Positions 22,497 through 48,477 of a stretch of 64,000 nucleotides of DNA are shown here, piece after piece. A model generated the notes under the pieces. That model was given only the letters and a program-made list of their open reading frames with translations, had not been told where the DNA came from and made no database searches. The stretch is from Geodermatophilus pulveris (GTDB taxonomy: Bacteria; Actinomycetota; Actinomycetes; Mycobacteriales; Geodermatophilaceae). The stretch lies in the NCBI RefSeq assembly GCF_900188375.1, contig NZ_FZOO01000005.1, positions 124,001 to 188,000 of the forward strand, given 5' to 3'. A program made the translations under genes and the position numbers. The stretch's first letter is position 1, and every line of letters begins with the position of its first letter.

Positions 22497-22769
22497 GTGC
22501 CCAAGTCCAAGGTGCGCAAGAAGTCGGTCTACACGCCACCGGCGGGTGTCCTGCAGCCGGGCACGTCGGCCGCCCGGGTCGCCGGGCCCAGCCCGCGCTG
22601 GTACGCCCCCGTGATGGTGACCCTCATGCTGCTCGGGTTGCTGTGGATCGTGGTGTTCTACGTGGCCGGCGAGAGCATCCCGTTCATGGCGGGTCTGAAC
22701 GTGTGGAACTTCGCCATCGGCTTCGGCCTCATGGTCGCCGGCCTGGTCATGTCGATGCGCTGGCGCTAG
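22497..22769 (+). CDS. crgA: CrgA: cell-division protein
   Basis: A 90-residue protein with a basic N-terminus (MPKSKVRKKSVYTPP), then two transmembrane helices (~40-62 and ~68-88) with the conserved FYVAGESIPFMAGLNVWNF loop. CrgA coordinates the divisome (FtsZ, FtsI, FtsQ) and sporulation septation in actinobacteria. GTG start after GGAGGGA. It is divergent from DUF881, as in other actinobacteria. Confidence 0.95.
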   Translation: MPKSKVRKKSVYTPPAGVLQPGTSAARVAGPSPRWYAPVMVTLMLLGLLWIVVFYVAGESIPFMAGLNVWNFAIGFGLMVAGLVMSMRWR

Positions 22770-22788
22770 CCGGGGAGCCACGCCGCTG

Positions 22789-22818
22789 CGGCCCTCGTCC
22801 CACCAAGGACGGGGGCCG
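22789..22818 (+). terminator. Terminator of crgA
   Basis: A 12-bp stem (CGGCCCTCGTCC with GGACGGGGGCCG, one G-T pair) around CACCAA, followed by a T-containing tail (TTCGTCTGT), 20 bp after the crgA stop. Confidence 0.75.
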
Positions 22819-22849
22819 TTCGTCTGTCATCGCTCGGATACGCACAGTG

Positions 22850-23068
22850 TTGTCCACAGACGGCGCTGTGCACAGCCCGAGAGCGCTGTCCACAGGTCGA
22901 CAAGGCGCTGGACCCCCAGGGTTGTCCACGACATGTGGAGAACGGGTGTTCGACGGCGAGCCGCTGACCTGCGGCTCCACCACCACTGTGGTGGGTGGGA
23001 CGGGAAGGGCACCCCGGTAACTACAGGACTGTGAGTCCATCCCCAGTTGTGCACAGCGCTGTGGACGA
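22850..23068. promoter_or_regulatory. DnaA-box cluster in the crgA-thiolase spacer
   Basis: This 219-bp stretch of a 474-bp gene-free convergent spacer holds a perfect actinobacterial DnaA box TTGTCCACA (22850-22858) plus one-mismatch boxes CTGTCCACA (22886), TTGTCCACG (22922), TGTGGAGAA (22934, reverse), TTGTGCACA (23047) and TGTGGACGA (23060, reverse), and a TGTGCACA palindrome near 22867. No reading frame looks real here. It could be a DnaA-titrating or reactivating locus, or part of the origin; see findings. Confidence 0.7.
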
Positions 23069-23191
23069 GTCGACACGTCGCCAGCCCCGGGGCCGGGGGT
23101 CCGGTCGCCGTCCCGCCCCGGCCGTGGTAGGCCGACACGCCGTCTGACCACGGCGGACGCCGGCCTCCCCGCACCGCCGACGGGACGCCGA

Positions 23192-23221
23192 CGGCCCCCG
23201 GTCCGCTGGGACCGGGGGCCG
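23192..23221 (-). terminator. Terminator of thiolase gene
   Basis: A perfect 13-bp stem (CGGCCCCCGGTCC) with a 4-nt loop, 22 bp past the thiolase stop on the minus strand. Confidence 0.8.
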
Positions 23222-23243
23222 CGGGGTGGACCGTGGACGGGCC

Positions 23244-24410
23244 TCAGTCGGAGGCGAGCAGCTCCAGGACGGTGGCGTTGGCCATCCCGCCGCCCTCGCA
23301 CATCGTCTGCAGGCCGTAGCGGGTCCCGGTGGCCAGCATGCTGTGGACCAGCGTGGTCATCAGGCGCGCCCCGGACCCGCCGAGCGGGTGGCCGAGGGCG
23401 ATGGCGCCGCCGCGGGGGTTGAGCCGGCCGGCGTCGGCGCCGGTCTCTGCCAGCCAGGCCAGCGGCACCGGCGCGAAGGCCTCGTTGACCTCGAACAGGC
23501 CGATGTCGCCGATCGACAGGCCGGACCGCTGCAGCACCCGGTGCGTGGCCGGGATGGGGGCGGTGAGCATGACCACCGGGTCGTCGCCGGCGACCACGGT
23601 GGTGTGGACGCGCACCAGCGGGCGCAGGCCGAGCTCGCGGGCCCGCTCGGAGGTGGTGACCAGCAGTGCGGCCGACCCGTCCGAGATCTGGCTGGCATTG
23701 CCGGCGGTGATGACGCCGTCGGCCCGGAACGGGGTCTTCAGCGTGGCCAGCTTCTCCAGGGTGCCGCCGGGGCGGATGCCCTCGTCGGCGCGGACCACCG
23801 TGCCGTCCGGCGCGGTGACCGGGACGACCTCCTCGTCGAACGCGCCGTCGGCCTGCGCCTTGGCCGCCGACTCGTGCGAGGCCAGGGAGTACTCGTCGAG
23901 CCGGGTGCGGGAGAACCCCCAGCGCTCGGCGATCATCTCCGCGCCCACGCCCTGGTTGGGGAAGACCCCCTCGTAGCGCTCCAGGAACCGCGGCCCCAGC
24001 GGCGCCCCGGCGCCGACGGCCTCGCCGTACGTGGAGCCCATCGGCACCCGGCTCATCGACTCCACCCCTCCGGCGACGACGACGTCGGCCTGGCCGCTGA
24101 CCACGGTGGCCGCCGCGAAGGCGACCGCCTGCTGGGAGGAGCCGCACTGGCGGTCGATGGTCGTCCCGGGCACCGACTCCGGCCAGCCGGCCGCCAGCAC
24201 GGCGTTGCGGCCGATGTTGGAGGTCTGCTCGCCGACCTGGCTCACGCAGCCCCAGAAGACGTCGTCGACAACGACCGGGTCGACGCCGGTGCGCTCGACC
24301 AGCGCCCCGAGCACGGCGGCGGACAGGTCGACGGCGTGCACGCCGGACAGCCCCCCGCCGCGCTTGCCCACCGGGGTGCGCACCGCGGCGCAGATGACGG
24401 CGTCTCGCAT
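23244..24410 (-). CDS. Thiolase family protein (acetyl-CoA C-acyltransferase)
   Basis: A 388-residue thiolase that should cleave or form beta-ketoacyl-CoA. The nucleophilic Cys is in TTIDRQCGSSQQAVAF, the activating His in ALGHPLGGSGARLMTTLV, and the second Cys in TMCEGGGMANATVLE. The start VICAAVRTPVGKRGG is typical. It may act in fatty-acid or steroid side-chain degradation; neighbours do not specify the substrate. ATG is preceded by AGGAGT, and a candidate -10 (TACCAT, minus strand 24452-24457) lies 41 bp upstream. Its position between crgA and the PH-like gene departs from the mycobacterial order, so it is probably an insertion. Confidence 0.92.
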   Translation of the reverse strand: MRDAVICAAVRTPVGKRGGGLSGVHAVDLSAAVLGALVERTGVDPVVVDDVFWGCVSQVGEQTSNIGRNAVLAAGWPESVPGTTIDRQCGSSQQAVAFAAATVVSGQADVVVAGGVESMSRVPMGSTYGEAVGAGAPLGPRFLERYEGVFPNQGVGAEMIAERWGFSRTRLDEYSLASHESAAKAQADGAFDEEVVPVTAPDGTVVRADEGIRPGGTLEKLATLKTPFRADGVITAGNASQISDGSAALLVTTSERARELGLRPLVRVHTTVVAGDDPVVMLTAPIPATHRVLQRSGLSIGDIGLFEVNEAFAPVPLAWLAETGADAGRLNPRGGAIALGHPLGGSGARLMTTLVHSMLATGTRYGLQTMCEGGGMANATVLELLASD

Positions 24411-46052: not shown

Positions 46053-46587
46053 GACCCACTCCACCCCAGCCGTCGTCGTGTCCTCGCTGCCCGATGCGGT
46101 GCTCATCGTGCCCTGTGCCGCCGACGCGGTGGGCACCGCTGGCCTGCGATCGGGCCCCTCCTGGCGCAGCGTCCCCACCCAGAGTGTGGTTCGAGACACC
46201 CGATCTCTCTCCCTCATCCTCGTCATCACAGGTGTGGAAGCTGGGGATCGGGGTCGTCCGCCCAGGTCAGGGCACGAGTCGACGTGTTGGCGGACTGTGG
46301 GTGGACAGGGGCCTCCCTGTGTCGACACGTGGACATCTCGACGGTTGCCCACACCGGTCGCCGGCTCTCCACCCCCTGTCCCCCGGTTCCCCCAGGTCCG
46401 TCCCCAGGCCGTACCCAGGTGCGGGCGCCGGGCGTCCCCGCGAGCGGCCCGGTGCGGTGTCCGCGCAGGTCAGGACGGCGCCGGGCCGGTGCCGACGGTG
46501 CCGGAGGGGGCAGGCGGGCGACGATCTCCCCAGCCTGTGCACATCGTTGGGGACAACTCGTCGACTCCTCGACCGGCGGTCACCCGG
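46053..46587. other. dnaA-dnaN intergenic region, presumptive oriC
   Basis: 535 bp without a gene, in the place where most actinobacterial origins lie. Clear DnaA-box-like sites are few: TTGCCCACA (46345) and, on the reverse strand, TGGGGACAA (46548) each with one mismatch; CTGTGCACA (46535), CGTGGACAT (near 46328) and others have two or more. A GTGTCGACAC palindrome is near 46318. No AT-rich unwinding stretch is obvious. Origin function is inferred from context. Confidence 0.55.
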
Positions 46588-48436: not shown

Positions 48437-48477
48437 TGTGGACATCCGGACACCCGGTGTCCACACCGGTGTCCACA
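48437..48477. promoter_or_regulatory. DnaA boxes upstream of dnaA
   Basis: Three one-mismatch boxes: TGTGGACAT (48437, reverse), GTGTCCACA (48457) and GTGTCCACA (48469), with a weaker CCGTCCACA at 48666. They lie in the 586-bp divergent dnaA-rpmH spacer and could mediate dnaA autoregulation or be part of the origin. The rest of the spacer shows no gene. Confidence 0.65.

Follow-up and report, generated by a model that had tools for sequence, protein, structure and literature searches.

A conserved non-coding DnaA-box element beside crgA in Geodermatophilus pulveris and much of the class Actinomycetes: a probable DnaA-binding regulatory site

We analysed a stretch of 64,000 nucleotides from the genome of Geodermatophilus pulveris (contig NZ_FZOO01000005.1, positions 124,001 to 188,000 of the forward strand; hereafter the window), in which the spacer between the cell-division gene crgA and a convergent thiolase-like gene carries a cluster of boxes for the replication initiator DnaA within a conserved DNA element. 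The spacer lies 23.5 kb from the stop codon of dnaA, i.e. approximately 24 kb from the origin of replication (oriC). The genes and features of the locus are given below in window positions.

22497..22769, plus strand: crgA, encoding the cell-division protein CrgA (open reading frame; Pfam PF06781 above cut-off here)
22788..22819, plus strand: GC (guanine plus cytosine) hairpin directly 3' of crgA, terminator-like, without a T-run (-27.7 kcal/mol, z -5.0)
22850..22858, plus strand: perfect DnaA box TTGTCCACA (motif scan)
22862..23078, plus strand: conserved DNA element described by model R1 (of its 217 columns, 91 do not vary among 26 genus sequences)
22886..22894, plus strand: one-mismatch DnaA box CTGTCCACA (motif scan), overlapping the conserved TCCACAGGTCGACA at 22889-22902
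22922..22930, plus strand: one-mismatch DnaA box TTGTCCACG (motif scan), overlapping the conserved CCCCCAGNGTTGTCCAC at 22913-22929
22934..22942, minus strand: one-mismatch DnaA box TTCTCCACA (motif scan and genus alignment)
22940..22951, no strand assigned: LexA-like dyad GAAC-N4-GTTC, overlapping the DnaA box at 22934..22942 and the sole such dyad in the window
22965..22972, plus strand: TGACCTGC block, also present in the dnaA-dnaN spacer and upstream of dnaB in the same genome
23015..23073, plus strand: core, made up of a degenerate palindrome (from GTAACTACA, 23017-23025), TCCCCA and paired boxes (model R2, expectation value E 5.3e-6)
23047..23055, plus strand: one-mismatch DnaA box TTGTGCACA (motif scan)
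23060..23068, minus strand: one-mismatch DnaA box TCGTCCACA (motif scan)
23190..23226, minus strand: GC hairpin 3' of the convergent gene (-38.2 kcal/mol, z -4.8)
23244..24410, minus strand: convergent gene, from its open reading frame translation, which we take to be thiolase-like (the name follows the initial annotation)

Six TTGTCCACA-like boxes, one perfect and five with a single mismatch, thus lie on both strands at 22850-23068. The initial annotation had reported one perfect and five one-mismatch boxes in these 219 bp, and exactly these were recovered by the motif scan; approximately 0.011 boxes are expected by chance in 219 bp (scan estimate approximately 3e-10). Over the 64-kb window we counted 14 boxes with at most one mismatch versus 4.1 expected, a number reached in none of 100 shuffles. 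The whole genome showed no excess of boxes (234 matches vs 225 for the reversed motif). The enrichment is therefore local. The exact motif TGTCCACA occurs 31 times in the 4.38-Mb genome, with groups of at least two within 250 bp only in the crgA spacer and in the rpmH-dnaA spacer; clustering of one-mismatch boxes was judged on the listed places only, i.e. 100 of the 234 positions.

CrgA is encoded in all 26 genomes of the genus (27 loci), and in each of the 27 loci the first 500 bp after crgA contain 3 to 6 boxes. Single boxes vary between genomes, the first one (22850) being perfect in only part of the genus relatives; the spacing is largely kept, and the pair TTGTCCACS (plus strand) and TTCTCCACA (minus strand) at 12 bp is found in 24 of the 27 loci. 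The genus alignment, built from 26 of the 27 loci by leaving out the second copy of genome G001, delimits a spacer element of approximately 216 bp. Outside the boxes it contains blocks that are invariant or nearly so, namely TCGACA beside a box, CCCCCAGNGTTGTCCAC, TGACCTGC (near invariant), GTAACTACA and TCCCCAG, and its single-base gaps speak against coding. R1, a model built on sequence only, gave a strong match (E no higher than 5.9e-13) in 85 of the 96 family genomes, at one place each at that level. The initial annotation had made its reading depend on conservation of the boxes in relatives; in the genus, boxes are present at every locus, and in the family most genomes keep the element. 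As a separate observation, G001 holds two crgA loci (L012 on contig C6 and L027 on contig C30) of equal score and box layout, possibly an assembly duplicate.

Loci from other families have a core in common, which consists of AnTnACACnnGTGTnATTC, a short gap, TCCCCA, and then TGTGGATAAC and CTGTGGATAAC. To describe it, a second model, R2, was built without any row from Geodermatophilaceae, using 22 training rows from genomes that bear G handles and 8 further rows from named loci; the training took in family f2, genus g13, which we take to be Mycobacterium. The ACA and TGT of the palindrome and the TGTGGA of the last box are invariant in the 30 chosen core sequences, an alignment that is not independent proof because its rows were picked by score to a consensus written by eye from crgA spacers. 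In the source genome R2 gave a single match at E ≤ 0.01 under strict filters (C9:147015-147073, corresponding to window positions 23015-23073), and 203 of 246 class genomes were matched at the same threshold. The relation to crgA was evaluated for 140 genomes with a listed best R2 match, 88 of them also with a listed crgA place: the best match lay within 700 bp of crgA in 76 of these 88, and beside crgA in 54 of 66 after the 22 G-handle training genomes were dropped, a hold-out made by genome and not by whole family, with the 8 named training loci possibly belonging to scored genomes. Nearly full-length R2 matches also occur outside the class, e.g. in the phylum genomes G426, G484, G449 and G417.

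Boxes after crgA are likewise widespread in the class. The gene itself was found in 244 of 246 class genomes, and R1 gave 18 weak matches in 17 of 294 other class genomes, 11 of the 18 beside crgA and one upstream of dnaB (G124). Among 69 loci from 25 families, hand-picked for spread from the class crgA search, a box follows the crgA stop within 600 bp in 59, and two or more do so in 42 (138 boxes in total vs 15 for the reversed motif). A second set of 80 named loci comprises the best 80 of 575 relatives and leans to Streptomyces (29) and Geodermatophilaceae (23). Box density in this set was 9.5, 5.1 and 0.7 per kb in successive 200-bp bins after crgA, and mostly 0 to 0.3 elsewhere; a rise to 1.57 per kb was also seen at 2.0-2.2 kb before the crgA stop (loci L147-L226). 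Within 400 bp after crgA (locus L199 offers less than 400 bp), at least one box is present in 72 of the 80 loci, at least two in 65 and at least three in 55. All 29 Streptomyces loci carry boxes (3 to 6 in each); among the Geodermatophilaceae 20 of 23 loci have at least one, and among the others 23 of 28. Of 31 genomes, 25 have crgA 12 to 34 kb from dnaA and 6 have it 54 to 176 kb away; for family f18, which we take to be Streptomyces, the distance was 18.7 to 29.6 kb in seven of eight genomes. What stands beside crgA is a conserved non-coding element with clustered boxes and a core of palindrome TnACACnnGTGTnA, TCCCCA and box pair.

This conservation, together with a mycobacterial counterpart, strongly supports a DnaA site outside oriC at the crgA spacer. 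DnaA binding was mapped on Mycobacterium tuberculosis DNA in vitro by Hicks et al. 2020 (PMC7738170), and the portions of that paper considered here describe a site between Rv0010c and Rv0011c that is bound by DnaA in IDAP-seq, chromatin immunoprecipitation sequencing (ChIP-seq) and gel shift. Rv0011c is CrgA, according to an excerpt of a second paper (PMC6656915), and variants at the site are described as leading to longer cells, as dnaA variants do (PMC7738170, in part). We consider it probable that the spacer is a chromosomal DnaA-binding regulatory site, the counterpart of Rv0010c-Rv0011c, conserved across much of the Actinomycetes and tying replication to division. DnaA would assemble on the boxes, and a second protein bound to the palindrome may anchor it there. 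Since the site is close to oriC, a second copy would arise shortly after initiation; the site would then alter the pool or the nucleotide state of active DnaA, and the altered DnaA activity would help to time replication against growth and division. What we infer is that DnaA binds at this spacer, that a further factor occupies the palindrome, and that the site controls the activity of DnaA and not a gene next to it. A more far-reaching version can be put forward tentatively, with less than even chances: a class-wide control element in which a complex of DnaA and a palindrome-binding protein beside crgA sets DnaA activity and ties replication to division, i.e. a counterpart of the datA and DARS loci of Escherichia coli with a dedicated partner and, in the genus, a damage-responsive LexA overlay.

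Several observations weigh against a conserved regulatory site of this kind. Within the family, a strong R1 match is missing in all 9 genomes of the small genera g5, g8 and g10, four of which are 92 to 98% complete, so that the element may have been lost or have diverged there (the remaining 2 of the 11 family genomes without a strong match are incomplete genomes of g11). Three of the 23 named Geodermatophilaceae have no box within 400 bp after crgA, nor do 10 of the 69 class loci within 600 bp of the crgA stop, families f3, f7, f21, f28 and f38 showing none in the loci read. The reversed motif becomes more frequent after crgA too, with at least one in 30 of the 80 named loci and at least two in 3 (72 and 65 loci, respectively, for the boxes). 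The choice of the R2 rows by an eye-written consensus counts here as well; at E ≤ 0.01 R2 has no match in 43 of the 246 class genomes, f18 and f16 contributing several, and 12 of the 88 best R2 matches lie away from crgA (8 in the small-genome family f22, two in f6 at 1.8 kb, one in f28 at 1.6 kb, and one in f15 on another contig). The palindrome is degenerate in Geodermatophilaceae, where the ungapped consensus scores 22 of 44 in the present spacer, no better than the best shuffles. Box number and distance from dnaA are uncorrelated (Spearman 0.009, n = 31), and a dependence of the one on the other was rejected for want of a trend; near and far genomes give 2.76 and 1.33 boxes, respectively (p = 0.04, but the far group numbers only 6 genomes and phylogeny was left uncorrected). 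Finally, the initiation rate is described as unchanged in the mycobacterial mutants (PMC7738170, in part), which weakens simple titration of initiation; control of DnaA state, or of coordination with division, would fit better.

Alternatively, DnaA at the spacer could simply regulate transcription of crgA or of the gene that follows, and so couple replication to division via the level of CrgA. The position of the boxes beside a division gene would suit such a role, as would the finding, in the part of the source considered, that HigA2 binds the mycobacterial site in vitro and that Rv0010c is raised in a HigA2 mutant (PMC11205783). The neighbours of the element point the other way. Three genes were searched for after the element in the 80 named loci. 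The nearest of them was most often a rhomboid gene (52 loci, convergent), followed by a PH-domain gene (15, co-directional) and a thiolase gene (12, convergent); one locus had none of the three. Other genes may intervene (the nearest recognised gene is 2.2 kb away in L148). The site may thus stand at the 5' side of a gene in the 15 co-directional loci, whereas the nearest recognised gene is convergent in 64 of the 80, as it is in the window. The element thus keeps to crgA whichever gene comes next, and in most cases it seems to serve no neighbour promoter. No sigma-70-like promoter was found in the window. The initial annotation had seen terminators on both sides of the spacer: a strong GC hairpin does stand on each side, the one at 22788..22819 with many letters kept across the genus, but a scan for T-run terminators found none. 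Expression of both flanking genes is reported, in the portions of the source considered, as unaltered in mycobacterial dnaA mutants (PMC7738170), and we regard control of a neighbouring gene as unlikely.

Slightly less likely still is that the element serves above all as a landmark for a protein other than DnaA, which would bind the palindrome and act in the nucleoid, in segregation or in the damage response, DnaA being its partner. The strict palindrome TTACACNNGTGTA is rare, at 0 to 3 per genome (22 sites in 21 genomes; 12 genomes have at least one), and by eye one copy lies in the crgA spacer in 9 of the 12 genomes having it. Most of the 21 genomes were chosen for a looser palindrome noticed earlier in their own or a relative's crgA spacer; the nine spacer copies are therefore no free test, and the informative part is the scarcity of other sites. 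With such a distribution the strict palindrome looks more like a landmark than like a regulon site. The conservation of the non-box blocks GTAACTACA, TGACCTGC and TCGACA is in keeping with a landmark too, and so is the dyad GAAC-N4-GTTC, present in 23 of 26 genus sequences with five different N4 spacers; we treat it as a candidate LexA site only. The invariant letters of the core, by contrast, belong both to the palindrome and to the last DnaA box (TGTGGA), and the dyad is present in 0 of 7 checked other-genus loci carrying the GTAACTAC block (an eighth, L304, has no such block and was left unscored for the dyad), so that it was rejected as a feature of the class. The same dyad stands upstream of dnaB in 8 of 9 family genomes read, and dnaB may for this reason be under LexA-type control in Geodermatophilaceae.

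The initial annotation had also considered that the origin might have moved to the crgA spacer. The window holds two further DnaA-box regions.

46060..46587, minus strand: dnaA-dnaN spacer, presumed oriC, with two one-mismatch DnaA boxes (46345 and 46548)
48437..48477, no strand assigned: group of three one-mismatch DnaA boxes within the rpmH-dnaA spacer, upstream of dnaA (motif scan)

The three boxes upstream of dnaA are as expected for autoregulation. The dnaA-dnaN spacer is indeed the poorer one, our count of two one-mismatch boxes being the same as that of the initial annotation, and an origin at the crgA spacer, whether the true or a second one in this lineage, would account for its more numerous and better boxes and for the TGACCTGC and GTCGACA blocks that it has in common with the dnaA-dnaN spacer. 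Such an origin is nevertheless very improbable: the TTGTCCCCA box of the dnaA-dnaN spacer is kept in 9 of 9 family genomes read, and the crgA spacer does not adjoin dnaA, whose stop is 23.5 kb away. No AT-rich stretch sets the crgA spacer apart from the dnaA-dnaN spacer (lowest 40-bp GC 0.525 in both). Over 400 kb around the start of one relative (G022), GC skew was too weak to give a usable turning point. The TGACCTGC and GTCGACA blocks recur in the crgA spacer (22965), in the dnaA-dnaN spacer (46465) and upstream of dnaB (G000:C9 near 205408). As a general origin block TGACCTGC was rejected, since it occurs in the dnaA-dnaN spacers of the family genomes read but in only 1 of 11 regions from other families. 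The region upstream of dnaB in the source genome holds one perfect box, a weak R1 match (G000:C9:205448-205553, beyond the window) and the TGACCTGC block; among 27 genomes, 25 have at least one box in the 700 bp upstream of dnaB (72 boxes vs 14 for the reversed motif).

That the conservation reflects a small structured RNA is hardly credible and was rejected, since the two Rfam matches that might suggest it (M23 and npcTB_6715 at 22891-23037, E 0.06 and 0.08) are far under their gathering scores and probably due to chance, a compensatory change is seen in only 1 of 35 predicted pairs, and no promoter was found in the window.

To our knowledge, little is known of how actinobacteria restrain or recycle DnaA. 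A DnaA site called cryptic in one genus proves to be an old element kept by crgA across much of the class, and it has a bearing on the cell-length changes seen with variants at the mycobacterial site. The core can be deleted or mutated in tractable actinobacteria, and the palindrome offers a defined bait for a possible binding factor. Its retention next to one and the same division gene in many actinobacterial families points to an ancient control point, so far little studied, between replication and cell division.

Compared with known systems, this type of site is known from one genus, and what is added here is its conservation across the class, with a palindrome core, given that the mycobacterial study saw 'no obvious correspondence' in other species (in the portions considered; PMC7738170). 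A class-wide description of a site with this core was not found in our searches of the openly licensed PMC literature. Like the Rv0010c-Rv0011c site, the present element lies 3' of crgA, near oriC, and combines a DnaA-box cluster with a small palindrome. Of the five regions of PMC7738170, four were examined here, and all four carry boxes with at most one mismatch (crgA spacer 6, dnaA-dnaN 2, rpmH-dnaA 3, upstream of dnaB 1, which is perfect); the equivalent of the rpmH-dnaA region is described there as DnaA-bound in mycobacteria as well. The palindrome-plus-box core is common to both sites, in that R2, whose training took in f2/g13, matches only 23015-23073 here, with the limit that the ungapped consensus scan missed the core. 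Unlike at the mycobacterial site, the following gene is convergent here; the element extends further, its boxes are spaced at 36 bp, it has family-specific blocks, and its palindrome is degenerate. DnaA binding is experimental at the mycobacterial site, whereas here it is predicted from sequence.

Streptomyces coelicolor reportedly carries DnaA-box clusters outside oriC, named H69, H24 and D78. The crgA spacer resembles them in its non-oriC boxes near the origin. The initial annotation had read the spacer as a regulator like these clusters: a DnaA site outside oriC is upheld by the conservation, including 29 of 29 Streptomyces, and by the mycobacterial counterpart, whereas an effect on initiation timing is hypothetical; the mycobacterial study describes longer cells at an unchanged initiation rate. 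In E. coli, datA and the DARS loci depend on the proteins IHF and Fis and affect the nucleotide state of DnaA. As described in the part of the source considered, datA, DARS1 and DARS2 are non-coding loci at a distance from oriC where DnaA binds and its activity is tuned (PMC4585315); the crgA spacer is like them as a putative DnaA-binding non-coding locus off oriC, and unlike them in its gene context.
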